Shown here piece after piece: positions 16,209 through 36,390 of a stretch of DNA of 55,372 bases (the first letter of the stretch is position 1; every line of letters begins with the position of its first letter). The position numbers were made by a program, and so were the translations under genes. Under the pieces are notes generated by a model. It saw only the letters and a list, made by a program, of their open reading frames with translations, was not told the origin of the DNA and did no database searches. The stretch comes from a virus. The stretch lies in the IMG/VR virus record IMGVR_UViG_3300034071_002180, positions 1 to 55,372 of that record; one strand, written 5' to 3'.

Positions 16209-16232
16209 CCTGAGCATGAATAAAAACTGCTC
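16209..16232 (+). ncRNA. CCT-hairpin 3' element, copy 1
   Basis: CCT, then GAGCA, an 11-nt loop ending AAAAC, then TGCTC. One of eight copies in the window whose stems covary; here it ends the 15283-16200 operon. Confidence 0.7.
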
Positions 16233-16239
16233 AAAATTT

Positions 16240-16270
16240 CACGTGGGGTTTATCCACAGGGTTATACACA
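16240..16270. promoter_or_regulatory. CACGTGG plus two DnaA-box-like sites
   Basis: CACGTGG is followed by TTATCCACA (16250-16258) and TTATACACA (16262-16270), both matching the DnaA box TTATNCACA. The 16233-16510 gap otherwise has a CRP-like site, ACGGCGTGTCT at 16438 and a promoter. Confidence 0.5.
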
Positions 16271-16309
16271 GGGTGATTTATGATGTTGGTTACGACACTC
16301 CCGAAATTT

Positions 16310-16325
16310 TGTGAGATTAATCACA
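16310..16325. promoter_or_regulatory. CRP/GlxR-like operator
   Basis: TGTGAgattaaTCACA, an exact TGTGA-N6-TCACA palindrome about 150 nt upstream of the next promoter. Confidence 0.6.
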
Positions 16326-16456
16326 CGACTTGAGCGTCTCACTATTTAAGATTACTCGCTAGTAGGTTGATAATTTATGAGTAATAGGCTAGACTTACAT
16401 AGTAAGAAAAAATAAATAAAAGAAAGTCTATCCGCATACGGCGTGTCTAACCGAAA

Positions 16457-16484
16457 ATGTCAGACCCCTATGATAGGATAGAAT
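16457..16484 (+). promoter_or_regulatory. promoter for the 16511 operon
   Basis: ATGTCA, 16-nt spacer, TAGAAT. The -10 box ends 26 nt before the ATG, leaving room for the ribosome site AAAGAGG. TGTCAG in this position recurs before several operons. Confidence 0.55.
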
Positions 16485-16510
16485 TATCAACAAAAAGAAA
16501 GAGGCAATAA

Positions 16511-16723
16511 ATGTCCGCAAATGTCTACACTATCGAAAGCCTACTTGTAGGAAAAACTTATCACTCTCGCACACTAAAGGGAGAAATTATCTCAGCAGAA
16601 AAGTCTGATGTCTGGTATGGAACAGATACAGAAAGTTATCGTGTTCAGGTTCGCCCTCACTACTCAGCCCCACTTAATCTAAAAGATACTTATCGTATTC
16701 TCGCAGTAAGGATAAATGACTAA
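16511..16723 (+). CDS. 70-residue protein, unknown
   Basis: MSANVYTIESLLVGKTYHSR..., a compact beta-rich protein; AAAGAGG 6 nt upstream. First of seven coupled genes to 17910. No family recognised. Confidence 0.65.
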   Translation: MSANVYTIESLLVGKTYHSRTLKGEIISAEKSDVWYGTDTESYRVQVRPHYSAPLNLKDTYRILAVRIND

Positions 16724-16890
16724 TGCTAAAAGAATACATTGACGAAAACGAGTTTTATTTAATTAAAGATGAGATGAGATTTTGTTGTGATGAGTCACAA
16801 TTTAAATACACTTGTAAAGCCCACGGCGAGGCTATGGGTTGCTATTACCACGAGTTTGACTATACACAGAATTGCGAGGAACAACACTAA
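16723..16890 (+). CDS. 55-residue Cys/His-containing protein
   Basis: MLKEYIDENEFYLIKDEMRF... then CC, C-K-A-H and C-Y-Y-H patterns, plausible zinc ligands. TAATG overlaps at both ends. Function unknown. Confidence 0.6.
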   Translation: MLKEYIDENEFYLIKDEMRFCCDESQFKYTCKAHGEAMGCYYHEFDYTQNCEEQH

Positions 16891-17033
16891 TGGGATACAT
16901 TGAAATTTTTAGAATTGACAACGAGGGCGCAGGTTGGATAGACTTGTCTCAGGCTAATAGCGATGAATTGTTTAATTTAGAGTTAGGCTTACTTAATGAA
17001 GGCGCACTATTTACAACGAAAGAGGCAGAATAA
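16890..17033 (+). CDS. 47-residue acidic protein, unknown
   Basis: MGYIEIFRIDNEGAGWIDLS..., beta-rich start and acidic tail. Coupled by TAATG overlaps on both sides; no family recognised. Confidence 0.55.
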   Translation: MGYIEIFRIDNEGAGWIDLSQANSDELFNLELGLLNEGALFTTKEAE

Positions 17034-17251
17034 TGGACTATGAATACTTAATCACTTGCCAGTATGACTCAGAGGCACAACCTCATTGGGAACAACGCTA
17101 TGAAAATGAATTTGGCGCATGGGAAAGTTTTTTTCGATTTACTGATTGGGGACTTGCTAACGAATACTCAACAGTTAATCTTTACACTCCAACAGGAAAG
17201 TGTTACACCAAAGTATTTTATCGTGACGGAAGGGTACAGGTAAAAGCATAA
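17033..17251 (+). CDS. 72-residue aromatic-rich protein, unknown
   Basis: MDYEYLITCQYDSEAQPHWE..., rich in Trp, Phe and Tyr; no family recognised. Coupled by TAATG overlaps. Confidence 0.6.
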   Translation: MDYEYLITCQYDSEAQPHWEQRYENEFGAWESFFRFTDWGLANEYSTVNLYTPTGKCYTKVFYRDGRVQVKA

Positions 17252-17376
17252 TGCCACTATACGAATTTACTACTTTCATAACTATCGAGGCAGATAACGA
17301 AGAAGATGCCGTCCGTTGGTTTGATTGGAAAACCGAAGATTTAGAAACCTATGTCGCAGAAATTGAGGAGAAATAA
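17251..17376 (+). CDS. 41-residue acidic protein, unknown
   Basis: MPLYEFTTFITIEADNEEDA..., resembling short ferredoxin-like 'sensor' folds of phage mini-proteins; no assignment. Three bases separate it from the next gene. Confidence 0.55.
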   Translation: MPLYEFTTFITIEADNEEDAVRWFDWKTEDLETYVAEIEEK

Positions 17377-17378
17377 TA

Positions 17379-17666
17379 ATGGGAAGCGTAACAGCAATTG
17401 GATTAGCAGATAGCGTATTAGATTTAGAAACGCAGTTAGCGTATCACTTACAGGGTAATCACTATCCACCAGTACCACTAAGCATGGTGCAACCTTGCAT
17501 AGATGCTATTGACGCATACTATGATGAGGACTATGACCGATTTATTGCTATGCCTGAAGGCGTATTCTATAAGGGTATGAGTCATGCCCCTGCCCATGCT
17601 ATTGTAGACCAACACCACTTATCATGGTTCATTGACCCAGTAGATAACTATGAAGATGAGGAATAA
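17379..17666 (+). CDS. conserved actinophage-type protein, unknown
   Basis: 95 residues. The segment AYHLQGNHYPPVPLSMVQPC recalls a hypothetical family that is widespread in actinophages (W/Y-HL-x3-NHYPPVP). The rest is helical with many Asp and His (DQHHLSWFID). No known function. Supports an actinobacterial host. Confidence 0.65.
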   Translation: MGSVTAIGLADSVLDLETQLAYHLQGNHYPPVPLSMVQPCIDAIDAYYDEDYDRFIAMPEGVFYKGMSHAPAHAIVDQHHLSWFIDPVDNYEDEE

Positions 17667-17667
17667 A

Positions 17668-17910
17668 TTGTCTGATACAATGATTGCTATGGAACTAATT
17701 CACGCTGATGATCTAACACCAAGCCAATTGATGATTGGCGATTTAATTAAAGTTGGTGATGACATTGTTGAAGTTATTTATTTAGAAAGTGATTCAACAG
17801 GAGATAACTATTCAGTAGAAACTCAAAACGAATTTGGTGAAAAAGAAGTTATCTTGTATAGTTATACTGATACAATTCCGTTTTATGTTTTTATTGAAGA
17901 TGAAGAATAG
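17668..17910 (+). CDS. 80-residue acidic protein, unknown
   Basis: Start TTG 17668 is chosen because GAGG lies 6 nt upstream and it begins just past the previous stop; ATGs at 17650 and 17656 are alternatives. Beta-rich, acidic C-terminus (FIEDEE). No family recognised. Terminator follows. Confidence 0.6.
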   Translation: MSDTMIAMELIHADDLTPSQLMIGDLIKVGDDIVEVIYLESDSTGDNYSVETQNEFGEKEVILYSYTDTIPFYVFIEDEE

Positions 17911-17917
17911 TTAAAGT

Positions 17918-17945
17918 ATTTTTGTGTGCTTCCCCGCACAAAAAT
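17918..17945 (+). terminator. intrinsic terminator
   Basis: Stem ATTTTTGTG/CACAAAAAT around a C-rich loop, 8 nt after the stop codon. A/T arms make it act in either direction. Confidence 0.65.
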
Positions 17946-17968
17946 GCCACGTGCTACACGTCCCGCCC

Positions 17969-17984
17969 TGTGAGATTTGTCACA
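17969..17984. promoter_or_regulatory. CRP/GlxR-like operator
   Basis: TGTGAgatttgTCACA, an exact CRP-family palindrome that ends 9 nt before the TTGACA of the next promoter. Confidence 0.6.
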
Positions 17985-17993
17985 GTTTAAGAT

Positions 17994-18023
17994 TTGACAT
18001 TTTTTCCCCATGTATGCTAAGAT
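17994..18023 (+). promoter_or_regulatory. promoter, leaderless
   Basis: TTGACA, 18-nt spacer, TAAGAT; exactly 6 nt separate the -10 box from the ATG of the next gene. Confidence 0.65.
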
Positions 18024-18029
18024 TAATTT

Positions 18030-18182
18030 ATGAAGAAAAATCCAGAGGAATTACGCAGGCTTATGGAATTACGCCGTAGCAACGCTGCCTCTGCCGTACC
18101 CTCTAAAAAGAAATATACTCGCAAGGGTAGAAAATGTCAGTCAGAAATGCTACAATTAGATAAACAACAAAAAGGAGAATAG
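18030..18182 (+). CDS. 50-residue highly basic protein
   Basis: MKKNPEELRRLMELRRSNAA..., 16 or so Lys/Arg in 50 residues; possibly a nucleic-acid binder. No ribosome site; the start sits at the predicted transcript 5' end. Confidence 0.6.
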   Translation: MKKNPEELRRLMELRRSNAASAVPSKKKYTRKGRKCQSEMLQLDKQQKGE

Positions 18183-18186
18183 CCCC

Positions 18187-18363
18187 ATGGGAAATATCGC
18201 AGATGAATTTTATGATGAATACTACGCAACAACCTGCCCTGAATGTAAAGAAAATGCCGTTGACGCATATGAGGAAAAATGTACTCATTGCTTGCTAGAA
18301 GAAATGTCCGCACACTACAATGAAGACATTGCTCTAGAAATGAGTCTAGGCCTTGACTACTAA
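18187..18363 (+). CDS. 58-residue acidic zinc-ribbon-like protein
   Basis: MGNIADEFYDEYYATTCPEC... and a later CTHC: a CxxC...CxxC pair 20 residues apart. Located 4 nt after the basic protein gene. Function unknown. Confidence 0.6.
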   Translation: MGNIADEFYDEYYATTCPECKENAVDAYEEKCTHCLLEEMSAHYNEDIALEMSLGLDY

Positions 18364-19087
18364 TACACTTAAACTAAAAAGATCTAAAGACAGAAAGGTC
18401 GCTAATGCCGTCACCTCTAATGGAAAACAAGCAAGTATCGCAAATACCTTTGGCCTACCTGCTGGAAAGGCTTTCTCGTGCCCTGGTGCCACTAGTGTAT
18501 GTGAAAGCGTATGCTACGCAGGAAAACTCGAAAAGGTATTCCCAACCGTAAAGGTTAACCTATTACACAATTGGGCCCTGCTAAAAGACGCAGACTATTT
18601 AACTATGCTTAATCTCATTGCTGAGATGATTGCTGATTTCAAGGCTGATTGTATAAAGAAAGACGCACCTATGCTATTTCGCATTCACTGGGACGGAGAT
18701 TTCTTTAACGATACTTATGCCACTGCCTGGTCCGATGTAATCAAACTTAATCCTGATATTCAATTCTGGGTATACACTCGTGTTAAGTCTGCTGCTCTAA
18801 TCCTTAAAGACATTGAAAACCTATCACTTTACTTTTCTGCTGATAGTGAGAATGTTAAAACTGCCGTTGATCTAAAAATTAATAGCGGTGTTCGCATGGC
18901 ATACCTTGCTAAGAATTTTGCTATCGGTCAAGCCGATGTAAAAGAAATGATTGGTAAGCCTGCTGCTAAGTGTCCTGAGAATAATAAACAAATTCCACTT
19001 ATCTCATCCGCTGGCTCCGCTTGCGTTTCTTGCTCATTGTGTGTATACTCTAAGAGTGACATAATTTTTTCTGCGACTAAGAAATGA
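18353..19087 (+). CDS. GP88-like phage protein
   Basis: 244 residues from a TTG overlapping the previous gene by 11 nt. FSCPGATSVCESVCYAGKLE, then FRIHWDGDFFND, VYTRVKSA and a C-terminal CVSCSLC cluster recall the 'gene product 88' family (PF17338) of actinophages. Six or more conserved cysteines suggest a metal or iron-sulfur site, and some of the pattern resembles radical SAM-like TIM barrels, but no activity is known to me. Confidence 0.65.
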   Translation: MTTNTLKLKRSKDRKVANAVTSNGKQASIANTFGLPAGKAFSCPGATSVCESVCYAGKLEKVFPTVKVNLLHNWALLKDADYLTMLNLIAEMIADFKADCIKKDAPMLFRIHWDGDFFNDTYATAWSDVIKLNPDIQFWVYTRVKSAALILKDIENLSLYFSADSENVKTAVDLKINSGVRMAYLAKNFAIGQADVKEMIGKPAAKCPENNKQIPLISSAGSACVSCSLCVYSKSDIIFSATKK

Positions 19088-19092
19088 GATAA

Positions 19093-19155
19093 ATGAATTC
19101 CTTGCAATTAATATTTTTATTTTGGTTGTTAATACTTTTATTTTTTCACCAATAA
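19093..19155 (+). CDS. 20-residue hydrophobic peptide within a hairpin
   Basis: MNSLQLIFLFWLLILLFFHQ starts 5 nt after the GP88-like stop. It lies almost wholly inside an inverted repeat, TCCTTGCAATT/AATTGCAAGGA, that would sequester it in RNA. Size and hydrophobicity resemble type I toxin peptides (Ibs/TisB class), but similar DNA could simply be a terminator. Confidence 0.35.
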   Translation: MNSLQLIFLFWLLILLFFHQ

Positions 19156-19253
19156 AAATTGCAAGGATCCACGTGGGCAAAACTTTTGGTTTGTCAAGTT
19201 GCGACACGCCTTTAAGATGTGATTAAGGACACACCCCAAAACCCTCCCTTGAT

Positions 19254-19282
19254 TGGCATTTCTGACATTTTTCTGCTAGAAT
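19254..19282 (+). promoter_or_regulatory. promoter for the 19327 gene
   Basis: TTGGCA, 17-nt spacer, TAGAAT. The 19156-19326 gap also contains CCACGTGG (19169-19176) and CGACACGCC (the complement of the GGCGTGTCG element). Confidence 0.55.
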
Positions 19283-19326
19283 TATACTATAAGCAATTAA
19301 CCCCCACAACAGAAAGGCAAGACCCA

Positions 19327-19497
19327 ATGACACTTCACGGATACACTTACCAAATTGGTGATTTATTTACAACCAGCAAGACAGGCGTTACAGGTCGTAT
19401 CGCAGGTTTTACACCAATGTCTAATAAGGTTACCAGAGTTAGTCTAATCTTGGCAAATGGCGCACAACGCCTTGCTATGGTCAAGACAAGCAAATAA
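19327..19497 (+). CDS. 56-residue beta protein, paralogue of 19603
   Basis: MTLHGYTYQIGDLFTTSKTG..., preceded by AGAAAGGCAAG. Aligns by eye with the next gene: Y-x-(I/V)GD-x-FTT-x-K-x-x-V-(T/S)G, then R-V-x-L and NGA. Looks like a small SH3/KOW-like barrel. Function unknown. Confidence 0.65.
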   Translation: MTLHGYTYQIGDLFTTSKTGVTGRIAGFTPMSNKVTRVSLILANGAQRLAMVKTSK

Positions 19498-19527
19498 TCT
19501 CACAATGTGAGAAATGTCGAAATGGAT

Positions 19528-19557
19528 TTGACATTTTTATCCCCAAAATGTTATACT
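19528..19557 (+). promoter_or_regulatory. promoter for the 19603 gene
   Basis: TTGACA, 18-nt spacer, TATACT. A TCACAATGTGA palindrome lies 20 nt upstream, at the end of the previous gene. Confidence 0.6.
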
Positions 19558-19602
19558 TAGGTATAACCAAATAACAACCCCTAAACAGAAAAGAGAAACA
19601 AA

Positions 19603-19767
19603 ATGGCAGTAGCAACAGCAACTTACAAAGTCGGAGATACTTTCACGACACAGAAGTCAAAGGTCAGCGGAGTAATCACAGAGATTACACCACAGGCTAA
19701 TGGAAATGTTCGTGTAAAGTTAGATGTAAATGGCGCAACTCGTTATACAACTTGGACGGCTAAGTAA
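19603..19767 (+). CDS. 54-residue beta protein, paralogue of 19327
   Basis: MAVATATYKVGDTFTTQKSK... shares the GD-x-FTT...VSG...RV motif with its neighbour, so the pair arose by duplication. AAGAGAAAC precedes the ATG. Followed 14 nt later by hairpin motif copy 2. Confidence 0.65.
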   Translation: MAVATATYKVGDTFTTQKSKVSGVITEITPQANGNVRVKLDVNGATRYTTWTAK

Positions 19768-19781
19768 GTAAATAGTTTATT

Positions 19782-19805
19782 CCTGAGTATGAATTAAAAC
19801 TACTC
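19782..19805 (+). ncRNA. CCT-hairpin 3' element, copy 2
   Basis: CCT, GAGTA, 11-nt loop ending AAAAC, TACTC. Compared with copy 1 both sides of a base pair changed (C-G to T-A). Confidence 0.7.
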
Positions 19806-19848
19806 AACACCCCCAACTAATAACCCACAAAAGAAAAGAGATAAACAG

Positions 19849-20271
19849 ATGGCTAGAGCAAAAGCAATAAATGTAAAAATCCCAACAGTTCGTGTAATCG
19901 CAGGACTAGAGCAAGCACTTGCTACACTAGAAGCAGACTACGCAACACAATCAGCAAAAGAAGCGCAATACGAAATTGCTAAGAAGGCTTGGCAAAAAGA
20001 GGTTATTGACTACGCAGTAGCAAACATCTCAAAAGCAGAAAACTTCCGCACCAACTATCGTAATTGGTCAAACAATCTTAACATTGACTTTGACTTGACA
20101 GTATTGGAAAAGGATTTGCCAACAGAGCCTGAAAAGGACTTCGAGGTAATTCACTCCAGCACTTATCGTGAGTCAAAGAAAGAAATCCAAAACGCAATCC
20201 GTATTCTGAAAATGACAGATGAGGAAACAGTAAATACCTCAACCTACAACGCAATCGCTCAGTATCTATAA
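19849..20271 (+). CDS. 140-residue helical protein, unknown
   Basis: MARAKAINVKIPTVRVIAGL..., with a long helical middle (EADYATQSAKEAQYEIAKKA). AAGAGATAAACAG precedes the ATG. No family recognised. A 7-bp hairpin GTATCTA/TAGATAC spans its stop, followed by motif copy 3. Confidence 0.65.
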   Translation: MARAKAINVKIPTVRVIAGLEQALATLEADYATQSAKEAQYEIAKKAWQKEVIDYAVANISKAENFRTNYRNWSNNLNIDFDLTVLEKDLPTEPEKDFEVIHSSTYRESKKEIQNAIRILKMTDEETVNTSTYNAIAQYL

Positions 20272-20283
20272 TTAGATACAACT

Positions 20284-20308
20284 CCTGAGTATGAGTCTAA
20301 ACTGCTCA
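20284..20308 (+). ncRNA. CCT-hairpin 3' element, copy 3
   Basis: CCT, GAGTA, 11-nt loop ending TAAAC, TGCTC (one T-G wobble). Ends the 19849 transcript; a stem-loop sits just upstream. Confidence 0.7.
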
Positions 20309-20425
20309 ACCACGACCACAGAAATGCGTGGCTAAATAAATAGAGTGGAGAATTCGCCAGGCTGATTAGGGCGATCATAGAAATACTATAGAGCCAGTTC
20401 ACACCAACTGCAAGAAGTGTAACTA
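20309..20425 (+). other. structured gap between two hairpin motifs
   Basis: No frame seen. Contains CCACG/CGTGG, CGCC/GGCG, ATAG/CTAT and AGTT(c)ACAC/GTGTAACT inverted repeats and a TACTAT box near 20384, leading into motif copy 4. It may encode a short stand-alone RNA. Confidence 0.4.
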
Positions 20426-20450
20426 CCTGAGTATGTATCAAAACTGCTCC
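20426..20450 (+). ncRNA. CCT-hairpin 3' element, copy 4
   Basis: CCT, GAGTA, 11-nt loop ending AAAAC, TGCTC. No protein gene ends here, so it probably closes a non-coding transcript. Confidence 0.65.
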
Positions 20451-20462
20451 CCGCAAGGGCCC

Positions 20463-20492
20463 TTGACAAATGTCAGTGGCACCCAGTACAAT
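20463..20492 (+). promoter_or_regulatory. promoter for the 20524 gene
   Basis: TTGACA, 18-nt spacer containing TGTCAG, TACAAT. Ends 31 nt before the ATG. Confidence 0.6.
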
Positions 20493-20523
20493 TGAATTAA
20501 CCAACTAACAGAAAGAGGCCCCC

Positions 20524-20952
20524 ATGGACCAAACAGAAACATCAGTAACAGTAATACCAAACACAACACAGGAATTCCTTCAGTCTCAAATTAAAATCAA
20601 GGATGAGCGCATTGCTCAACTTGAGGACCACATTCAAAAAGTAACTCAGCGCTCATATGCAGATTCTGCAGAGCGTAACCGTATTACAGAAGATATGCAG
20701 ACATGGACTCTCTCAGCGCTTGAGAGTGGAACAATTAATGAGTCAGAAGCAGAAGAGATTGCGGAAATCGTTGGATTCGAATTAACGAAAGAATTCGAAT
20801 TAGAAGTTACAGTTATGTATTCAGTCACCGTTAATGCTCGTGATGAAGAGTCTGCACAGAATGTAATTCACGATATTGATTTTGATACCGTTCAATACGA
20901 CTCAGATAATATTTCTTGGTTGTCATCCAGTGTTGACAGAATAGATATTTAG
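20524..20952 (+). CDS. 142-residue coiled-coil protein, unknown
   Basis: MDQTETSVTVIPNTTQEFLQ..., a coiled coil at residues ~15-50 (IKIKDERIAQLEDHIQKV), then an acidic region and a C-terminal beta domain (VMYSVTVNARDEESAQNVI). AGAAAGAGG precedes the ATG. Function unknown. A TAGTAG/CTACTA hairpin and motif copy 5 follow. Confidence 0.65.
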   Translation: MDQTETSVTVIPNTTQEFLQSQIKIKDERIAQLEDHIQKVTQRSYADSAERNRITEDMQTWTLSALESGTINESEAEEIAEIVGFELTKEFELEVTVMYSVTVNARDEESAQNVIHDIDFDTVQYDSDNISWLSSSVDRIDI

Positions 20953-20970
20953 TAGGGGGCTACTAAAGGA

Positions 20971-20998
20971 CCTGAGCATGTCTCTACATAAACTGCTC
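20971..20998 (+). ncRNA. CCT-hairpin 3' element, copy 5
   Basis: CCT, GAGCA, a longer 15-nt loop still ending AAAC, TGCTC. A perfect TAGTAG-GGGG-CTACTA hairpin stands 5 nt upstream. Confidence 0.7.
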
Positions 20999-21020
20999 TC
21001 TCATTATTCCGTGAAAAATT

Positions 21021-21051
21021 CCACGTGGGGCTTATCCACAGGTTATCCACA
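21021..21051. promoter_or_regulatory. CCACGTGG plus two DnaA boxes
   Basis: CCACGTGG, then two exact DnaA boxes TTATCCACA (21032-21040 and 21043-21051) in the same orientation, then the palindrome ATCACATTGTGAT at 21060-21072. The rest of the gap leads to the next promoter. Confidence 0.55.
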
Positions 21052-21123
21052 TGATCAAGATCACATTGTGATTTACGATACAGTTACGAAATGCCCCAAT
21101 TGTCCCATGCTTACTTATACGAT

Positions 21124-21152
21124 TTGACTTTGTCAGTCCACCCATGTATACT
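21124..21152 (+). promoter_or_regulatory. promoter for the DUF932 gene
   Basis: TTGACT, 17-nt spacer containing TGTCAG, TATACT; 31 nt before the ATG with AAAGAGAAA in between. Confidence 0.65.
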
Positions 21153-21183
21153 TAGATTAACAACAACAGAAAAGAGAAAACTC

Positions 21184-22200
21184 ATGGCACATGACCTAGA
21201 AACACAAAACGGAAAAGCATCATTCGCATCTTTCCGTGAACCTGCTTGGCATGGATTGGGTACAGTCTTTACAGAAGAAAAATCTACATCAGAGATGCTG
21301 GCTGCTGCTAGTCTTAATGGTTGGAATGTTCGTCTTGAAGATTTGGAAACCCCTTCACATTTAACAAGCGACAAGGCGTACCAATACGTTTTGCGTACTA
21401 ACCCAACAGATAATTCTCAGACCGACATTCTTGGTGTCGTTGGTGAGCGTTACCATGTTTTACAGAATGAAGATTTATTTTCATTTGGCGATAACATTCT
21501 AGATGGTGGTGGTCGTTGGGAAACGGCTGGCTCAATCAAGGGTGGTCGTGTTGTATTCGGTGCGTTAGCACTAGAGCGAGAAACAGTTCTTGACCCTAGC
21601 GGTGTTGCCGATAAGGTAAAGACTTATTTGCTCATCAACACATCACACGATGGCTCAATCGCTATTCAAGCAAGCATCACGCCAGTTCGTGTTGTATGCG
21701 CTAACACTCTTAACCTTGCGCTTGGTTCAATCAAGAAAAAGAATGGCATCAAGCAATCATTCAAGATTCGTCACACACAAACAGCAAGCGGTAAGGTTGC
21801 TATTGCTCGTGAAACTCTTGGCATGGCTAATAAGTACATGGACGAATTTGACATCATGGCTAAGGCAATGATTGAGAAAGAAGTCACTGCTCTTGATTTC
21901 AACAAAATTATTCTTGCTGCTTATCCTAAGCCAGAAACAGATGCTAAGGGTTCACTAAAGAAGTGGGAAAATAAAGTTGATGTCATTAACGACATTTACA
22001 CAGGCGAGTTTAACGGAATGATTGCGGGTAATTCATGGGGTGCTTTCAATGCGCTAACTGAACGCCTTGATTGGTATCGTTCTGCTCGTGGTGGTTCTAA
22101 CGAATCCATTCTCGCATCAGCATCAGGATTTGACCCTGCGATTAACGCAGAAAAAAATCGTTTGCTAAAAGTTGTACAAAATGTTATGTCTTTAGCATAA
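21184..22200 (+). CDS. DUF932 phage/plasmid-like protein
   Basis: 338 residues. FREPAWHGLGTVF at residues ~15-27 is the signature of the DUF932 (TIGR03299) family; VGERYHVLQNEDLFSFGD and TPVRVVCANTLNLAL are further family blocks. Common in phages and plasmids of Actinobacteria; role unknown, often near replication or recombination genes. An earlier in-frame start would overlap the promoter. Its stop lies in a GTTATG/CATAAC hairpin followed by motif copy 6. Confidence 0.85.
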   Translation: MAHDLETQNGKASFASFREPAWHGLGTVFTEEKSTSEMLAAASLNGWNVRLEDLETPSHLTSDKAYQYVLRTNPTDNSQTDILGVVGERYHVLQNEDLFSFGDNILDGGGRWETAGSIKGGRVVFGALALERETVLDPSGVADKVKTYLLINTSHDGSIAIQASITPVRVVCANTLNLALGSIKKKNGIKQSFKIRHTQTASGKVAIARETLGMANKYMDEFDIMAKAMIEKEVTALDFNKIILAAYPKPETDAKGSLKKWENKVDVINDIYTGEFNGMIAGNSWGAFNALTERLDWYRSARGGSNESILASASGFDPAINAEKNRLLKVVQNVMSLA

Positions 22201-22208
22201 CAAAAAAT

Positions 22209-22232
22209 CCTGAGCAAGATTTAAAACTGCTC
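22209..22232 (+). ncRNA. CCT-hairpin 3' element, copy 6
   Basis: CCT, GAGCA, 11-nt loop ending AAAAC, TGCTC. It lies between the DUF932 stop and tRNA-Asp, four bases before the tRNA. Confidence 0.7.
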
Positions 22233-22236
22233 GCAT

Positions 22237-22310
22237 GGAGTGTTAGCATAGTTGGTTAATGCGCTACCCTGTCACGGTAGAGATCACGGGTTCAAGTCCC
22301 GTACACTTCG
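22237..22310 (+). tRNA. tRNA-Asp (GTC)
   Basis: Full cloverleaf: acceptor GGAGTGT/ACACTTC, D stem GCAT/ATGC, anticodon arm CTACC-ctGTCac-GGTAG, T arm ACGGG-ttcaagt-CCCGT. Discriminator G; CCA is not encoded. Probably read from the DUF932 promoter. Confidence 0.95.
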
Positions 22311-22316
22311 CAAAAT

Positions 22317-22425
22317 CCACGTGGGGAACAAATAGTACAAATCGGACATAAAAATGTCAAATAAAAAAATCTTTACGAAGACTATAAAAGATCCCCCAAA
22401 ATGTCAAACCAAAAAATCTTTACGA
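22317..22425. repeat. CCACGTGG and a 28-bp direct repeat
   Basis: CCACGTGG at 22317 is followed by two near-identical 28-nt direct repeats (22351-22378 and 22398-22425) of the form AAAATGTCAAA...ATCTTTACGA, differing at about three positions. No gene in 22311-22465. Probably operators for the next promoter. Confidence 0.6.
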
Positions 22426-30379: not shown

Positions 30380-30479
30380 GATCCTTATCTGCCCCGTTTG
30401 TAAAAAGGAATGGGATTTACGCTGGGGCATTATGGCTAATGAATCCCTGTCCAGACACATGAAAGACTGCACAAAATAA
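30372..30479 (+). CDS. 35-residue zinc-finger-like peptide
   Basis: MSRILICPVCKKEWDLRWGI... ending LSRHMKDC: C-x2-C ... H-x4-C, close to a classic zinc finger. Overlaps the previous gene by 8 nt. Confidence 0.55.
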   Translation: MSRILICPVCKKEWDLRWGIMANESLSRHMKDCTK

Positions 30480-30499
30480 AGTTATGGTATCATAGAGAC

Positions 30500-31183: not shown

Positions 31184-31203
31184 AAGGGTGTTATAATATA
31201 AAC

Positions 31204-31992: not shown

Positions 31993-32008
31993 CAGAAAGA
32001 AGACTCAT

Positions 32009-32437
32009 ATGAGTATATATGACTTGTCATTTATTGACAACTCTGGTAATGAAATAAAACTGGAAAGTTTTAAAGGTAAAAGCATATTGATAGTTAACAC
32101 TGCAAGCCAGTGTGGATACACAAAACAATATGAAGACCTACAAAAGATCCAAAGCGACTCTGTTGTTGTAATTGGATTTCCATGTAATCAGTTTGGTAAT
32201 CAAGAGCCAGGAACAACAGAAGAAATCAAAGCATTCTGCACAAACATCTATGGTATAACCTTTCCTATATCACAAAAGGTAGAGGTTAATGGTCCTAATG
32301 CACACGAGATATATAAGTACTGCAAAGACAGTGCTAACGTTACTAATATTGGTTGGAACTTTGAGAAATTCTTAGTATCTGTTGACGGATCAATTACTCA
32401 TTATCCTAGTTCACATCAAGTATCAGACATCGTTTGA
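32009..32437 (+). CDS. glutathione peroxidase (thiol peroxidase)
   Basis: 142 residues. NTASQCGYT holds the peroxidatic Cys, GFPCNQFGNQEPG the Gln and resolving-Cys block, and WNFEKFLVSVDG the catalytic Trp-Asn. A full GPx core of the Cys type that reduces peroxides with thioredoxin; a thioredoxin gene is at 33937. AGAAAGAAGA precedes the ATG, so it is probably the second gene of an operon with its enlarged paralogue. Confidence 0.9.
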   Translation: MSIYDLSFIDNSGNEIKLESFKGKSILIVNTASQCGYTKQYEDLQKIQSDSVVVIGFPCNQFGNQEPGTTEEIKAFCTNIYGITFPISQKVEVNGPNAHEIYKYCKDSANVTNIGWNFEKFLVSVDGSITHYPSSHQVSDIV

Positions 32438-32462
32438 CAATCAGTTTGCCTTAAGGTATACT
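32434..32462 (+). promoter_or_regulatory. promoter, leaderless
   Basis: TTGACA, 17-nt spacer, TATACT, 6 nt to the ATG at 32469. The -35 box overlaps the GPx stop codon. Confidence 0.7.
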
Positions 32463-32468
32463 TGAACT

Positions 32469-32642
32469 ATGAGTATAGATGATATGACATTACGAGAAGA
32501 AATTGCAAGGGCTATAGAAGCCATACCTATTGAACCATCAATAACAAATGCTTTAGGCATGCGTACAGAAGCAGCAAAAATTGCAAGAGGATTGGATAAT
32601 TATATGACTCAATGGTATGAAAGGCAGGTAGATTTCGAATGA
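32469..32642 (+). CDS. 57-residue helical protein, unknown
   Basis: MSIDDMTLREEIARAIEAIP... resembles short helical proteins of actinophages (I-A-x-A-I ... I-A-x-G). Leaderless. Overlaps the next start by ATGA. Confidence 0.6.
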   Translation: MSIDDMTLREEIARAIEAIPIEPSITNALGMRTEAAKIARGLDNYMTQWYERQVDFE

Positions 32643-32728
32643 TAAGTTTTTTCTTTTTAATTCCAGCATTCTTGGTAGGTTATGTAGCATGCTACCTTAT
32701 TATGACATATCATGTTGATCAAAACTAG
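32639..32728 (+). CDS. 29-residue membrane peptide
   Basis: MISFFFLIPAFLVGYVACYL..., one transmembrane helix. Coupled to both neighbours by overlap. Confidence 0.5.
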   Translation: MISFFFLIPAFLVGYVACYLIMTYHVDQN

Positions 32729-33179
32729 CCCAAGTTCATCTGCGTACATCTTTGACGTAGATGGCACCCTGGCCAATGTAGATCCTTACCTGCATTATGT
32801 TCGTGGCTCTAATAGGGATTACGAGGCTTTTCATGAGGCTTCTATTGATGCCCTGCCAAATATACAGGTAGTAGAAATGTTAAACCATGCTTTCTTTGAT
32901 CAGATGCACGTTATTATTGTCACATCAAGAAAAGAAACTTGGCGTGGACTAACATCATATTGGCTTGCCAAAAATGACATTGGTCACCATGCACTGTACA
33001 TGCGTAGTGACGATGATAACAGGCCAGACTACGAAGTTAAAAAAGATATCTTACTTAAGATTAAGAAACATTGGAATGTTGTTCATGCAGTAGATGATAA
33101 TCCCAATGTGATTAGATTGTGGGAAGATCATGGAATTCCAACTACTAAGATTGGTACATGGGATGGAAACAAGTCTTGA
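32712..33179 (+). CDS. HAD-family phosphatase, PNKP 3'-phosphatase-like
   Basis: 155 residues. Motif I FDVDGTLANVDP, motif II IIVTSRKE, motif III/IV Lys then VDDNPNVIRLW: a complete HAD active site. The layout matches the phosphatase half of phage polynucleotide kinases (T4 Pnkp type), though nucleotide phosphatases are similar. Overlaps the small membrane gene by 17 nt. Confidence 0.8.
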   Translation: MLIKTSPSSSAYIFDVDGTLANVDPYLHYVRGSNRDYEAFHEASIDALPNIQVVEMLNHAFFDQMHVIIVTSRKETWRGLTSYWLAKNDIGHHALYMRSDDDNRPDYEVKKDILLKIKKHWNVVHAVDDNPNVIRLWEDHGIPTTKIGTWDGNKS

Positions 33180-33210
33180 TACTTTTATCTCAGTATGGTA
33201 TGATTAGTTT

Positions 33211-33348
33211 ATGAGCAAACGAGTTAAGAAGATTTATAAGTGTGTTGAATGTGAAACAATGATTACGATTGTAACCAAGGTTCACGAACTTCCAGAGTCA
33301 ATAATCTGTCCTTGTGACAACGTAGCAGAAAGCCAGGGTGCAAAATGA
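33211..33348 (+). CDS. 45-residue zinc-ribbon protein
   Basis: MSKRVKKIYKCVECETMITI..., then ICPCDN: CxxC...CxC. Leaderless (TATGAT 33199-33204). Function unknown. Confidence 0.6.
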   Translation: MSKRVKKIYKCVECETMITIVTKVHELPESIICPCDNVAESQGAK

Positions 33349-33506
33349 GAAAGTCTAACAACAAAACCTCTCAGCATAAGATTAAGAGAGCAACAAAGAA
33401 CAAGAAGAGAATACAGGATAAGCCTTATCTTTCTAAATTTGAACGCAAACAGCAACGGATCAGAGAAGAAATTATTCTTGGATCTTTACGCTCAGTCCCT
33501 AACTAG
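33345..33506 (+). CDS. 53-residue strongly basic protein
   Basis: MRKSNNKTSQHKIKRATKNK..., about one third Lys/Arg; likely binds RNA or DNA. Starts in an ATGA overlap. Confidence 0.55.
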   Translation: MRKSNNKTSQHKIKRATKNKKRIQDKPYLSKFERKQQRIREEIILGSLRSVPN

Positions 33507-33519
33507 AACTGGAGATATT

Positions 33520-33663
33520 GTGGTAGATCAAGACGAAGTAAATAAAATATCAAAAGAAATAAAACGTTACATTATTAAACAACACATGAAAACATACTAT
33601 CATTCTACTATTGGGATTTTATGCTTTCTTCTTGGAACATTCTTTGGCTTACTAATTAAATAA
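33520..33663 (+). CDS. 47-residue single-pass membrane protein
   Basis: From GTG 33520 (GGAG 5 nt upstream): MVDQDEVNKISKEIKRYIIK... then a C-terminal helix GILCFLLGTFFGLLI. A longer frame from 33439 would overlap the basic protein by 68 nt, so is less likely. Lies 6 nt before tRNA genes. Confidence 0.5.
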   Translation: MVDQDEVNKISKEIKRYIIKQHMKTYYHSTIGILCFLLGTFFGLLIK

Positions 33664-33669
33664 GGACTA

Positions 33670-33747
33670 GCACCAGTAGCCAAGTTGGTTAAGGCACCGA
33701 ACTCATAATTCGGCTATTCGTAGGTTCAAGTCCTACCTGGTGTACCA
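33670..33747 (+). tRNA. tRNA with CAT anticodon (Met or Ile2)
   Basis: Acceptor GCACCAG/CTGGTGT, D arm GCC...GGC, anticodon arm CCGAA-ctCATaa-TTCGG, T arm GTAGG-ttcaagt-CCTAC, discriminator A and encoded CCA. Elongator Met or lysidine-modified Ile cannot be told apart by eye; no initiator-type features. Confidence 0.9.
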
Positions 33748-33748
33748 T

Positions 33749-33820
33749 ACCTCTGTAACTCAGCGGAAGAGTAGCGGACTTCTAATCCGTTTGTCGCAGG
33801 TTCGATTCCTGCCAGGGGTA
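33749..33820 (+). tRNA. tRNA-Arg (TCT)
   Basis: Acceptor ACCTCTG/CAGGGGT, D arm ACTC/GAGT, anticodon arm GCGGA-ctTCTaa-TCCGT, T arm GCAGG-ttcgatt-CCTGC. No encoded CCA. Reads AGA/AGG-type Arg codons that suit an AT-rich genome. One base after the preceding tRNA. Confidence 0.93.
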
Positions 33821-33837
33821 CATGGTATAATTATATT

Positions 33838-33943
33838 GTGACAATATAGTCGCTGTATCTTTGTCGGGAAACTTTTTTATAGCGTGTTGCAACACTATAT
33901 TGTCCTTAACTTAAAGTCCTGGGTATGACTTAAAAACTACCCA
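33838..33943 (+). ncRNA. candidate structured RNA with three-way junction and CCT-hairpin (copy 7)
   Basis: TATAAT at 33826-33831 predicts a 5' end at 33838. Starting at nucleotide 3: P1 GACAATATAG (33840-33849) pairs with CTATATTGTC (33895-33904); one base later P2 CGCTGTA pairs with TATAGCG (33851-33884); directly after it P3 TGT-TGCA-ACA (33885-33894). Then the CCT element follows: GGGTA, 12-nt loop ending AAAAC, TACCC (33918-33942), which covaries from GAGTA/TACTC. The 3' end overlaps the thioredoxin gene on the other strand. No frame fits inside. Function unknown. Confidence 0.65.
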
Positions 33944-34188
33944 AATATAGATCTTATAACAGATTCTGGCTTAACTCCGCCAAGCATATTATGATACTCT
34001 CCATCAATAAGTGCAATGAATGTTGGAACAGACTGAACTCTATACTCTCTGACTAACTCAGTCTCCGCATCTACGTCAACCTTTGTATATTTTATATCTG
34101 GGTTATCGTTAATAAACCTTTCAATGACTGGAGCCATACTCTTGCATGGGTTACACCAATCTGCTGTAAAATGTAAAAGTTCTTTCAT
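33937..34188 (-). CDS. thioredoxin
   Basis: 83 residues, the compact phage type. LLHFTADWCNPCKSMAPVI holds the redox CxxC as CNPC, then YRVQSVPTFIALIDG contains the cis-Pro and following strand. It could reduce the glutathione peroxidases at 31204-32437. Start overlaps the upstream small gene (ATGA). Confidence 0.9.
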   Translation of the reverse strand: MKELLHFTADWCNPCKSMAPVIERFINDNPDIKYTKVDVDAETELVREYRVQSVPTFIALIDGEYHNMLGGVKPESVIRSIFG

Positions 34189-34316
34189 GGCTTTGGCTTA
34201 TGCTTTACTTCATAAGGGGCAATCTTAGACTTGATGCGACCATCTTTATATAGTCTAACAATCCATCCATCTTTAATCTGAACAGGGTTAAAGGCTGCTG
34301 CTTTTTTCTTTGGCAT
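34185..34316 (-). CDS. 43-residue basic protein, unknown
   Basis: MPKKKAAAFNPVQIKDGWIV..., basic and short, with a beta-strand-like middle. TAATG overlap upstream and ATGA overlap downstream with thioredoxin. No family recognised. Confidence 0.6.
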   Translation of the reverse strand: MPKKKAAAFNPVQIKDGWIVRLYKDGRIKSKIAPYEVKHKPKP

Positions 34317-34756
34317 TACTTTGCCACCTTAAATGGAGAATCAACCCAACTATCTGATTTGGCAACTGGGATACAGTTAGGCACTGGCTTTCCGTCTGCA
34401 CCTGGTTTCATTCCTCTTTGTACATATCCATCCCAGCAAGGTGCTGCTTTGCCCATTTGTGCATCATACATAGCCATAGCAACTTCTGAATCTTCAGGCT
34501 CAACCATTAGTGGTGGGATCTGTACATACATAGACATTGCACATGCAGTGTATAGTCTTGTTGCTTCCCATAATCCGCTTTCTTCTTGTTCAAATAGTTG
34601 AATCATTACCGCAGGATTTTCTGCACTTGCTTCCATATAATATTCTGTTTCTGGATTACCAAGAGCGCCTTCATACATAACATGTACTACTTGCCCTATG
34701 TGTGTATCTCCTTCTCCACCGTGGGAGGTCATTGCGAAATCGCCTTCTTTTAACAT
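34316..34756 (-). CDS. phage protein with CWxGYxxxGMK motif
   Basis: 146 residues. The N-terminal part, DFAMTSHGGEGDTHIGQVVHVM, is beta-rich; the C-terminal CWDGYVQRGMKPGADGKPVP followed by NC is a short segment found at the ends of many phage and giant-virus structural or prohead-related proteins. Leaderless (TATACT 34763-34768, minus). Function unknown. Confidence 0.65.
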   Translation of the reverse strand: MLKEGDFAMTSHGGEGDTHIGQVVHVMYEGALGNPETEYYMEASAENPAVMIQLFEQEESGLWEATRLYTACAMSMYVQIPPLMVEPEDSEVAMAMYDAQMGKAAPCWDGYVQRGMKPGADGKPVPNCIPVAKSDSWVDSPFKVAK

Positions 34757-34773
34757 ATTAATAGTATACCATA

Positions 34774-35040
34774 TTAACCAGCAAGCCTATTATGAGTCCT
34801 TATCCTATGGCAATTGGCACAAACCACCTCACACTTTTCGATCTCTTTCTTAATAGCCTTCCAGGAAAAACCATCGTGGATCATTCTGGATATGTTATAT
34901 TTCTTATCTCTTACATGATCAAAGTCTAAGATTATGTGGTTACCAACACCACAGTCTACACAGCCAGAATCCTCTTTTATCTTAGCAAGCATCTTCTTAT
35001 ACTGCTGCTTATTATAATGGTCTAACTCTTTGTCAGTCAT
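34774..35040 (-). CDS. HNH endonuclease
   Basis: 88 residues. CVDCGVGNHIILDFDHVRDK...CEVVCANCHRIRTHNR is a full HNH domain: two CxxC zinc knuckles and the DH...N/H core. Free-standing HNH nucleases of this size are often homing endonucleases or packaging helpers. TATAAT (35048-35053, minus) is 7 nt before the ATG. A structured RNA candidate lies directly upstream. Confidence 0.85.
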   Translation of the reverse strand: MTDKELDHYNKQQYKKMLAKIKEDSGCVDCGVGNHIILDFDHVRDKKYNISRMIHDGFSWKAIKKEIEKCEVVCANCHRIRTHNRLAG

Positions 35041-35061
35041 TGCTATTATTATACCGTGAAA

Positions 35062-35153
35062 ATATTAAGGCCCCACACAGGCAATTCACCTGACTTGCGC
35101 CACGGTCTCTATCCAATGGGTAACTAATCCATCACTAAGGTCCTGTGTGGGAC
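35062..35153 (-). ncRNA. candidate structured RNA upstream of the HNH gene
   Basis: On the minus strand TATAAT at 35160-35165 predicts a 5' end at 35153. P1 starts at nucleotide 3: CCCACACAGG (35151-35142) pairs perfectly with CCTGTGTGGG (35081-35072), prolonged by ACCT/AGGT; inside are ATGG/CCAT and GAC/GTC hairpins. There is no T run, so it is not a plain terminator. The -10-to-P1 geometry is the same as in the RNA at 33838. Orientation is inferred; the stem is also palindromic on the plus strand. Confidence 0.5.
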
Positions 35154-35168
35154 ACTTCTATTATACTG

Positions 35169-36212
35169 CTACTTTGAACTTATTTCTGCTACTCTTGCCT
35201 TTGAAAACTTGAGCATAGCACTTCTGATTGGAGAGTAGCCAAGATCTTCAGCCTTCTTGCCACAGGTATCAAGCATAAAGTTAAAGAACTTTTTAACGGA
35301 ATCATTTTTTGAGTTCTTCTCTTTGTATGCTATACCGTATGTGAATGTTGATATGTTATAGGATAGTTTATTAGGGTTCTTGTAATTAATTTTAACTACG
35401 CCACTCTTGTCTGGGACAAAGTCTCCAAGGAATACTGACGCTGCACTCACTGTTGGCTGTATAAACCTTCCAGCCTCATTCTCAACAGAGACTGTCTTTA
35501 GTCCTCTTGCATATGATATCTCATTGTATCCAATAGATCCATTTGTAGTTCCTTGTACCATTGCAATTCCATGAGACCCAGAAGCGCTGGTCATATAACT
35601 CTTAGATATATCTCCAGGGAATGCAGTACCAAAGTTTTTATTCCCTGGTTTGTTCCATATAGTTGGAGCAACTGCATTAAGGTATGAGGTAAAAACTTCT
35701 GAAGTTCCAGAACCATCAACACGGTATACAACTCTAATCTTTGTTGCTGGTATCTTAGGTAGTTTTCCTGATATAAGGTTTTCTTTTAATATCTGTGGGT
35801 CGTTCCACATTGTTATTTGTCCCGCAAAAACTTTAGCAAGGGTATCTTTACTCATCTTGATAGTAACTTTATATCCATCAAGTTTGTAGATAATTCCAAT
35901 TGGCCCTGCTACCAATGGAACATATACAAACTCTTTTGATGGCTTTACTTCTGTACCAGAGTAAGGAACATCTGACATAGCAAAGTCTGTTACTCCATTT
36001 GAAAACATATTCTTTCCAGCACCTGATCCAGATGCTCCATATACAACAGAATCTCCTGTTGATTTCATAAATTCGACCCTGCATCTGTCTATAAAGTTAG
36101 CAGCAAATGTGGATCCAGCACCTTGAAGGTTGTCAGCATGTGAAGGGGTAATAAAAAAAGCATTAGCAAATATGGCTAATGCTACTGGTAAAGCAATGAA
36201 TTTAAATTTCAT
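35169..36212 (-). CDS. pstS: PstS-like phosphate-binding protein
   Basis: 347 residues with a signal peptide (MKFKFIALPVALAIFANAFF...SHA) and the PstS opening LQGAGSTFAANFIDRCRVEF, then YGASGSGAGKNMFS, DFAMSDVPYSG, YRVDGSGTSEVFTSYL and SASGSHGIAMVQG: the phosphate-binding Ser/Thr/Arg/Asp residues of the family are present. It would capture phosphate at the cell surface of the infected host. Start 36212 has TATACT 6 nt upstream (leaderless), which rules out a longer form. Phage-borne pstS is known from aquatic phages. Confidence 0.92.
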   Translation of the reverse strand: MKFKFIALPVALAIFANAFFITPSHADNLQGAGSTFAANFIDRCRVEFMKSTGDSVVYGASGSGAGKNMFSNGVTDFAMSDVPYSGTEVKPSKEFVYVPLVAGPIGIIYKLDGYKVTIKMSKDTLAKVFAGQITMWNDPQILKENLISGKLPKIPATKIRVVYRVDGSGTSEVFTSYLNAVAPTIWNKPGNKNFGTAFPGDISKSYMTSASGSHGIAMVQGTTNGSIGYNEISYARGLKTVSVENEAGRFIQPTVSAASVFLGDFVPDKSGVVKINYKNPNKLSYNISTFTYGIAYKEKNSKNDSVKKFFNFMLDTCGKKAEDLGYSPIRSAMLKFSKARVAEISSK

Positions 36213-36285
36213 ACTTACAGTATATATGACAAGGCTATAAACTTTTGTTATAATTGGTAAACTAAGAATTAAATTTAGATGAATA

Positions 36286-36390
36286 ATGAGCAGTTTATGG
36301 ACTTGCTCAGGTCTCCCAGGGTGCGACCCTGGCTTGTCCGTACTCAGCAATAAGGTTGCTAAAAGCAACTGCATGTATCATGACGGAATA
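36286..36390 (-). ncRNA. candidate structured RNA ending in CCT-hairpin (copy 8)
   Basis: TATAAT at 36397-36402 (minus, at the end of hsp20) predicts a start near 36390. The RNA can fold as TCCGT/ACGGA enclosing CATG-ATA-CATG and GTTGC/GCAAC hairpins, followed by a strong CCAGGGT-CGC-ACCCTGG hairpin, GAGA, and the CCT element (GAGCA, 11-nt loop ending AAAC, TGCTC at 36311-36288). About 105 nt long, like the RNA at 33838. No frame inside. Stops before the pstS promoter. Confidence 0.55.

Follow-up and report, generated by a model that had tools for sequence, protein, structure and literature searches.

The closest described counterparts of the RNA element reported here are exoribonuclease-resistant RNAs (xrRNAs) of eukaryotic viruses. 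As described by Dilweg and colleagues (PMC10520033), coremin RNAs, of the xrRNA-C type, occur in beny-, cucumo-, hypo- and other RNA viruses of eukaryotes, halt Xrn1 one base ahead of the stem, stall scanning ribosomes, and need a G at loop position 2 and a downstream hairpin, hp2. In a solved plant-virus xrRNA, the apical loop pairs with a 3' segment, so that the 3' end encircles the 5' end (PMC12191101). In vitro, bacterial RNase J1 is stopped by a flaviviral xrRNA; according to the authors of that study, xrRNAs never meet this enzyme naturally (PMC5760640). Here, we describe an element, 27 nucleotides (nt) long in its main class, that is present in nine copies in the virus record IMGVR_UViG_3300034071_002180 (the window, i.e., the whole stretch of 55,372 bases that was analysed).

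Compared with the available coremin description, the element shares a first stem of 4 base pairs (bp) closed by C-G, a 2-nt gap, an AAACURC spacer, a loop (lp1) that ends in A and then D (not-C), and intergenic or untranslated sites; the Xrn1-resistant coremin heptaloop and the octaloop of the GAGUA form of the element are one inserted base apart. The two differ in that the element has an 8-nt lp1 and an explicit 5-bp pseudoknot stem, S2, that lies outside the coremin description, and in that the element is carried by DNA phages of bacteria whereas coremin is carried by eukaryotic RNA viruses. The pairing of an apical loop with a 3' segment is a topology common to the element and the Tombus/luteovirus-type xrRNA (ST9a, PDB 9CFN), which differs in its length (~55 nt against 27 nt), its 9-bp pseudoknot, and its other conserved letters. 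With the flaviviral xrRNA, the element is assumed to share a protein-free mechanical block. The flaviviral fold is much larger than the 27-nt element. In titles and the opening lines of abstracts, with few subscription papers covered, neither the element nor any xrRNA of a DNA phage was found to have been reported. The most far-reaching interpretation, to which we give somewhat less than an even chance, is that DNA phages across the bacterial tree carry xrRNAs, smaller and more widely spread than those described, built on the coremin AAAC-spacer core and serving as operon dividers that would shield capsid mRNA and tRNAs from RNase J.

A covarying H-type pseudoknot

The original prediction had proposed eight copies of a short hairpin in the window, and this observation is confirmed: all eight copies are present at the coordinates claimed, with the arms as described and a loop of 11 nt in six copies and of 12 and 15 nt in two. 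A pattern built for the eight copies recovered the same 8 in the window and 0 in the reversed sequence. In addition, a structure scan restricted only by the closing C-G, by the 5' spacing, and by AAA in the linker, and demanding neither CCT nor the arm letters, detected the eight known copies, a ninth at 49103 on the minus strand, and one extra match at 8334 on the minus strand, compared with a mean of 0.65 over 20 shuffles and 0 in the reversed sequence. These results indicate that the set of copies lies far above chance.

The element is an H-type pseudoknot, not a plain hairpin. Its 4-bp stem-loop, S1 (NNNC/GNNN), carries a loop in which RRRYA pairs with URYYY past an AAAC linker, forming S2. 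The predicted hairpin was correct as an RNA structure with the arms as stated but lacked the second helix, S1, in which the three bases that precede CCT pair with three located within the supposed 11-nt loop; a plain hairpin with an 11-nt loop was ruled out because this loop pairs outside itself.

A scan of IMG/VR with the predicted arms yielded at least 120 stretches, with the 24-nt spacing in 111 of the 150 matches listed. Among 112 unique 24-nt copies, including the fitting window copies, in which the S1 positions were unfixed by the pattern, the pairs -1/+10, -2/+11, and -3/+12 were formed in 99, 100, and 80%, compared with 46, 40, and 42% expected, and their mutual information (1.32, 1.87, and 0.65 bits, respectively) provided the top three values of all position pairs. 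A G, also unfixed by the pattern, was seen opposite the closing C (the first C of CCT) in 111 of the 112 copies, which makes S1 a 4-bp stem with a C-G closing pair, as in the first hairpin, hp1, of coremin.

For the strict set (80 of 183 unique strict IMG/VR copies, the first 80 of 148 randomly ordered), 95.7% of the cells evaluated by a pair tool were able to pair, compared with 81.7% after shuffling and 23–43% when the partners were slid. A second IMG/VR scan left both ends of S2 free; in the 103 unique matches among those listed, S2 pair 2 was formed in 103/103, S2 pair 1 in 87/103, and both inner S1 pairs in 101/103, and the S2 types included GGGCA/TGCCC, AGGCA/TGCCT, TGGCA/TGCCA, and CGGCA/TGCCG. 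In this free-end set (60 of 100 in the pair tool), 95.0% of the cells paired, compared with 79.1% after shuffling. The inner S1 pairs were formed in 75/80 and 77/80 copies of the strict set and in 59/60 and 59/60 of the free-end set, the outer S1 pair was weaker (59/80 and 43/60, respectively), and the closing pair was fixed by the pattern in both sets. The covariation score exceeded all 500 shuffles in both sets. Of the five measures of the pair tool, however, two, the numbers of pairs and of pair types, were not above the shuffles in the strict set (491/500 and 494/500 shuffles as high) and were weakly or not above them in the free-end set (344/500 and 20/500), because several pairs had been fixed by the search patterns.

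A scanner combining CCT, AAAC, S2, and the inner S1 pairs found 161 matches when applied to IMG/VR loci totalling 1.0 Mb, against 2 when these were reversed. A purine at S2 position 4 was rejected as a general variant, with just 22 unique matches, 7 of them with S1. Overall, the predicted conservation of pairing while the bases change is borne out as real covariation, in S1 as well as, with its ends left free, in S2, and the element represents a strongly covarying RNA pseudoknot family of phages and prophages that is very widespread.

Position relative to genes

The placement of 396 distinct elements, from the window and the IMG/VR and GTDB loci, was analysed with crude calls of open reading frames (ORFs), elements inside ORFs longer than 450 nt being excluded. 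When neighbours were called on both sides (n = 355), 283 elements lay between same-strand genes, 37 between convergent genes, 26 between divergent genes, and 9 antisense, and the orientation of the element follows transcription. The element is thus mainly intercistronic, and its typical site is just past the stop of one gene and before the next gene, a tRNA, or a capsid operon. For the elements with a same-strand gene upstream (n = 330), the distance from the stop codon was never between -7 and +3 nt, was 4 nt in 3, 5 nt in 49, and 6 nt in 28 elements, and tailed off thereafter, with 130 elements more than 30 nt away; two elements contained the stop codon within themselves (distance -8). This edge at 4–5 nt would match the room occupied by a terminating ribosome.

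In the 283 tandem gaps, the median distance was 15 nt from the upstream stop and 49 nt to the downstream feature. Among 250 elements followed by a coding sequence (CDS), 77 sat 20–39 nt before its start, and a tRNA was found 3–13 nt downstream of 24 elements. In tandem gaps longer than 150 nt (n = 124), 42 elements hugged the stop, 16 the start, and 66 neither. The original prediction had regarded the copies as marking transcript 3' ends, past the last gene of an operon. The copies do lie just after genes, but usually not after the last one, and the assignment to transcript 3' ends is mostly wrong since the RNA downstream often holds a tRNA, or the genes for scaffold and capsid.

As a separate observation, several of the Aminicenantes and KSB1 loci L129, L133, L139, L153, L172, and L187 share similar letters ahead of the element, as if one conserved gene ended there, and the stop may lie in the CCTGAG of the element.

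The first proteins downstream (134 of 185 scanned; duplicates and many of the shortest removed by hand) matched the head scaffolding families phrog_194 in 8 cases, phrog_24130 in 6, phrog_172 in 5, and phrog_4866 in 3, and the members of these groups may overlap. Head scaffolding was the largest named group, yet a minority; the other families included integrases, nucleases, WhiB-like regulators, and unknown families. For the first proteins upstream (136 of 196 scanned), phrog_1221 (12) and Hsp20 (9) led, and each of these two also precedes an element in the window; several families of minor head and of head morphogenesis proteins came next. For the second proteins downstream (82 of 117 scanned), phrog_1221 led (6) and major head proteins of several families recurred. 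In two checked sets of ten, scaffold made up 4/10 of the first genes and major head 5/10 of the second genes, figures that do not represent a rate, the twenty having been picked as likely-looking.

Among 21 annotated records from the BLAST lists, the last of which (Erwinia phage Faunus) keeps S2 and AAAC, forms 1/3 S1 pairs, and was counted as lacking S1, the second gene downstream was labelled major head, major capsid, capsid, or coat in seven (StauST398-3, KC5a, A403, D6E, StB12, vB_SepS_48, and S. aureus 196) and minor capsid in phig1e. Vagococcus lutrae and the pMP118 remnant have a scaffold gene downstream and an unnamed gene next; Page has a portal-type gene followed by hypothetical genes, the A. 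kunkeei genes are unnamed, Arthrobacter Amigo has two tRNAs downstream, and other genes follow in S-SM2, S-RIM4, S-EIVl, DSS3phi2, A-HIS1, cr7_1, and H101. In the capsid operons, the portal and minor head genes lie upstream of the element and the scaffold and major capsid genes downstream.

The copies in the window are listed in Table 1. Three of the nine begin exactly 5 nt past a stop codon, and 2 of the 4 tRNAs have an element 4 nt upstream. None of the nine copies is directly followed by a T tract, as an intrinsic terminator would be, so that the claim of no plain terminator holds for the window; the accompanying claim of no T tract holds there as well, but several Firmicutes copies have T-rich runs after them.

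Table 1. Copies of the element and the tRNAs adjoining them in the window.
Feature	Position	Strand	S1	S2	Context
Element 1	16206..16232	+	ATTC/GAAT	GAGCA/TGCTC	5 nt past stop of ORF 16048-16200
Element 2	19779..19805	+	ATTC/GAAT	GAGTA/TACTC	11 nt past ORF 19603-19767
Element 3	20281..20307	+	ACTC/GAGT	GAGTA/TGCTC	9 nt past ORF 19849-20271
Element 4	20423..20449	+	CTAC/GTAT, outer pair open	GAGTA/TGCTC	closes the gene-free stretch that begins at element 3
Element 5 (long linker)	20968..20998	+	GGAC/GTCT	GAGCA/TGCTC	15 nt past ORF 20524-20952
Element 6	22206..22232	+	AATC/GATT	GAGCA/TGCTC	5 nt past ORF 21091-22200
tRNA-Asp	22237..22311	+			4 nt downstream of element 6
Element 7	33915..33942	+	AGTC/GACT	GGGTA/TACCC	after tRNA-Met and tRNA-Arg, facing minus-strand ORFs (convergent by ORFs)
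Element 8	36288..36314	-	AGAC/GTCC, outer pair open	GAGCA/TGCTC	between Hsp20-like and PstS-like genes
tRNA-Asn	49003..49076	-			4 nt downstream of element 9
Element 9 (26 nt; absent from the original prediction)	49081..49106	-	TGTC/GACT, outer pair open	GGGCA/TGCCT	5 nt past ORF 49112-49990, 4 nt before tRNA-Asn

Further features of the window were noted beside the copies. The gene-free stretch of ~115 nt between elements 3 and 4 (20308-20422) is a possible noncoding RNA, and the letters directly before element 4 recur before an element in another locus (L052). The same stretch is seen after elements 1 and 5 (16240-16275 and 21020-21055), consisting of CACGTGGGG and then TTATCCACA-like repeats, which we take to resemble DnaA boxes. 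Auxiliary genes, PstS-like, Hsp20, and Nol-like carbamoyltransferase, occupy 35169-40068 on the minus strand.

Distribution and related RNAs

A scan of GTDB yielded at least 119 strict matches in at least 116 loci, and both inner S1 pairs were formed in 109 of the 119 strict matches listed, compared with a mean of 37.7 and a maximum of 52 in 1000 shuffles. By a rough estimate, scans of this size would yield some random matches, yet a chance spread of so short a pattern was rejected because the S1 filter, which is independent of the pattern, passes these 109. The titles of the loci included Bacillota, Saccharibacteria and other Patescibacteria, Aminicenantes, Chloroflexota, and Cyanobacteria, as well as Actinobacteria, Alphaproteobacteria, Campylobacterota, and Bacteroidota. 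The 10 failures of S1 included both loci titled gammaproteobacterial in the NCBI sense (L167, Pseudoalteromonas, and L197), and the loci passing S1 included one of the betaproteobacterium Polynucleobacter and two with no title beyond 'proteobacterium'.

Near-complete matches were observed in phages of Staphylococcus, Lactobacillus, Bacillus, Anoxybacillus, Arthrobacter, Ruegeria, Synechococcus, and Acaryochloris and in crAss-like phages. When 16 phage records were re-read, 9 passed the scanner and 7 were looser: one pair of S2 is lost in StauST398-3 and StB12, the S2 of vB_SepS_48 is 6 bp long and displaced by one base, a single S2 mismatch is present in Page and in S-EIVl, and AAAC is absent from DSS3phi2 and replaced by AAAG in H101. 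The H101 near-copy (L424, about 1198-1224) is a possible gammaproteobacterial member of the family.

With one query at E ≤ 0.1, 101 phage records were retrieved, named Staphylococcus (85), Lactobacillus (7), Latilactobacillus (2), uncultured (2), Anoxybacillus (2), Nostoc (1), Acaryochloris (1), and Bacteriophage (1); no gammaproteobacterial organism name appeared among these 101, of which the 85 Staphylococcus records are not independent. The same kind of query gave no match in 5,426 E. coli genomes, where the larger collection makes the E-value limit stricter. Among the BLAST matches listed at E ≤ 10, Klebsiella had 4 and 31, Vibrio 3 and 30, and Escherichia 6 (in one list), and these gammaproteobacterial matches were partial, covering 61–84% of the query, and lay mostly within annotated genes. 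The plasmid matches comprised 23 records, mostly of Ligilactobacillus, Staphylococcus, and other Lactobacillales, with Bradyrhizobium (4), Bosea (1), Pseudoalteromonas (1), and Serratia (1) inside annotated genes. Outside the seeds, the strict pattern was found in 0/368 genomes in the class of a Pseudoalteromonas genome and in 1/298 in the class of a Lacticaseibacillus genome, numbers too sparse to test hosts.

In Rfam 15, no family except tRNA reached its gathering score in the window, and no model reached threshold on the element copies tested (those of the window, 18 GTDB loci, and others). The remark that the element was not recognised as a named RNA family thus stands at the gathering score; it is qualified, and a match to a known element partly established, by GP20-b RNA (RF03003, cis-reg), which matched three records with 20.5, 25.4, and 26.3 bits, below its gathering score of 36.2. 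The first two of these, in the Lactobacillus records KC5a and L. hominis, are full-length matches exactly on the element. The Rfam model of GP20-b consists of the S2 hairpin and a second hairpin, without S1, and has no match in the window. Six distinct GP20-b loci, in the class of an Anaeromassilibacillus genome (6/245 genomes, 4 over the cut-off), all allow S1 by eye, a seventh locus being a second copy in one of these genomes; the full pseudoknot scan detected the knot in two of the loci (L431 and L434). No GP20-b was found in 101 genomes in the family of the Lacticaseibacillus genome. At a Vagococcus lutrae locus (L429, 2001-2093), two tandem pseudoknots precede a phage scaffold gene, the first being the element with one S2 mismatch and the second a sub-threshold GP20-b-like RNA, which indicates that tandem copies exist. 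From these few sequences, GP20-b looks like a divergent relative whose model misses S1.

Two other Rfam families were seen nearby. At L435 (1501-1748, minus strand), a GP20-b RNA is preceded by a skipping-rope RNA (RF02924) at a distance of ~90 nt. A DUF2800 RNA (RF02960; L178, 2824-3009, minus strand) begins 1 nt past an intact element, and was rejected as a regular partner because an intact knot was seen in 1 of 4 above-cutoff members, namely the seed locus itself.

Proposed function and competing explanations

The coremin-like core, the loop-to-3' topology of xrRNAs, and the arrest of RNase J1 by a flaviviral xrRNA together suggest, by analogy, that the element may act as a mechanical block to a 5'-3' exoribonuclease (RNase J in most hosts) and spare the RNA downstream, a function for which we rate the chances as about even. 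The upstream part of a polycistronic transcript would be attacked by an endonuclease or at its 5' end, the exoribonuclease would degrade the upstream RNA and halt at the 5' edge of the knot, and the downstream RNA (a tRNA, scaffold and major capsid mRNA, or other genes) would survive longer, so that the dose of chosen genes in one operon could be raised without a promoter. The sharp limit at 4–5 nt from the stop fits an element that must stay folded ahead of the terminating ribosome. The presence of tRNAs and of scaffold and capsid genes downstream, the lack of matches in the 5,426 E. coli genomes, and the lack of gammaproteobacterial names among the 101 phage records at E ≤ 0.1 also speak for such a block. 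One of the suggestions in the original prediction, that the element may be an RNA stabiliser, comes close to this proposed reading.

The coremin AAACUAC spacer, 2 bases past hp1, has its counterpart in the AAACURC of the main 27-nt class, where the two bases between S1 and the spacer are mostly TA, TT, AT, or CT; the constancy of AAAC is partly a product of selection, AAAC having belonged to the search patterns. RNase J was sought in 50 GTDB genomes behind the 116 loci listed, with doubtful lineages chosen on purpose, and at E < 1e-40 (TIGR00649) it was found in 31 of the 47 genomes that were S1-positive and in none of the 3 that were S1-negative; the numbers were 38/50 at E ≤ 0.001, a loose limit at which E. 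coli also matches TIGR00649, and 24/50 at the curated cut-off. Two of the 47 S1-positive loci (L130 and L232) lie inside long ORFs and may be due to chance.

Several observations weigh against a coremin-like block to RNase J. The lp1 of the element, mostly C-U-(RRRYA)-W, departs from the coremin consensus YGAD or YGN..AD in having U, not G, at position 2; its last two bases fit AD (W in 103/112), and its start is partly fixed because CCT belonged to the search patterns. An equivalent of hp2 is not enriched, since a hairpin starts within 5 nt downstream in 45% of 400 elements, compared with 50% after shuffling; the mean energy downstream is slightly lower (-4.3, compared with -3.7 shuffled). 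RNase J was not found in 16 of the 47 S1-positive genomes, namely all seven titled Bacteroidota, Polynucleobacter, three Aminicenantes, Omnitrophica, Melioribacter, Spirochaetales, 'Proteobacteria', and a small Nomurabacteria genome. crAss-like phages carry the element too, and the near-copy in Pseudoalteromonas phage H101, whose host is gammaproteobacterial, has S1 and S2 intact with AAAG for AAAC. In addition, the hugging of stops in long gaps is not demanded by an exoribonuclease block, and the convergent copies, element 7 included, have no obvious downstream gene to protect. The hosts without RNase J and the convergent copies leave either a knot that blocks other enzymes, one that blocks ribosomes, or one with multiple uses.

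The explanation ranking next after an exoribonuclease-resistant RNA, and an unlikely one, is a ribosome roadblock or translation insulator that would bar post-termination ribosomes from the next cistron, tRNA, or structured RNA and keep the starts independent. The hard 4–5 nt edge fits the leading edge of a terminating ribosome, and coremin brings scanning ribosomes to a stall in wheat germ extract as well as in reticulocyte lysate (PMC10520033). A roadblock would also account for the convergent copies and for those in hosts that lack RNase J, but would leave unexplained both the recurrence of scaffold/capsid genes and tRNAs downstream and the bias away from gammaproteobacterial phages. Scanning is, moreover, unnecessary for bacterial ribosomes, which initiate internally. 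Slightly less probable is a recognition or cleavage site at which an endoribonuclease or a phage RNA-binding protein would set mature 5' or 3' ends, for example of tRNAs: the conserved unpaired CU, W, and AAAC, the tRNAs close by, and the DUF2800 RNA 1 nt downstream at one locus are consistent with such a site, whereas a core common to phages of many phyla would demand a universal protein, and the four DUF2800 members show the knot at the seed locus only.

We consider improbable the view taken in the original prediction, that of an element at transcript 3' ends, which would act as a factor-dependent terminator or would stabilise the upstream gene by blocking 3'-5' exonucleases. The copies are nearer to the upstream stop than to the downstream feature, some lie between convergent genes, and some Firmicutes copies precede T-rich runs, as this view would have it; against it stand the prevalence of same-strand neighbours, the group located 20–39 nt before a CDS start, and the capsid operons, in which scaffold and major capsid are downstream. 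A compact conserved pseudoknot with invariant unpaired bases would suit a small self-cleaving ribozyme or a ligand-binding switch, and preQ1-class switches share the pseudoknot topology; with nine window copies preceding unrelated genes and no ribozyme or riboswitch family at threshold on the element, this is very improbable. Finally, a DNA-level site (promoter, origin, or recombination site) is already unlikely and is strongly disfavoured as the least probable of all. A 'promoter' feature under the match in some Staphylococcus phage records and the DnaA-box-like repeats past elements 1 and 5 point to it, but covariation is seen in two helices, of which one runs through the loop of the other as a pseudoknot, and the orientation follows transcription; a promoter or other DNA site was ruled out on the covariation of these interlocked helices.

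If the element is indeed an exoribonuclease-resistant RNA, it would be the natural counterpart to the experiment in which a flaviviral xrRNA blocked RNase J1 (PMC5760640), and viruses of eukaryotes and of bacteria would have one RNA answer to 5'-3' decay in common, through either descent or convergence. It would help to explain the excess of capsid over portal protein from one late transcript, and would provide a protein-free module of 27 nt with which RNA stability could be set in bacteria. Phage 5' ends would then be predicted in the well-studied phages of Staphylococcus, Lactobacillus, and Bacillus, and existing 5'-end maps may hold them. Even with another function, the element constitutes a strongly covarying phage RNA family for which no Rfam 15 model reaches threshold on the copies tested.

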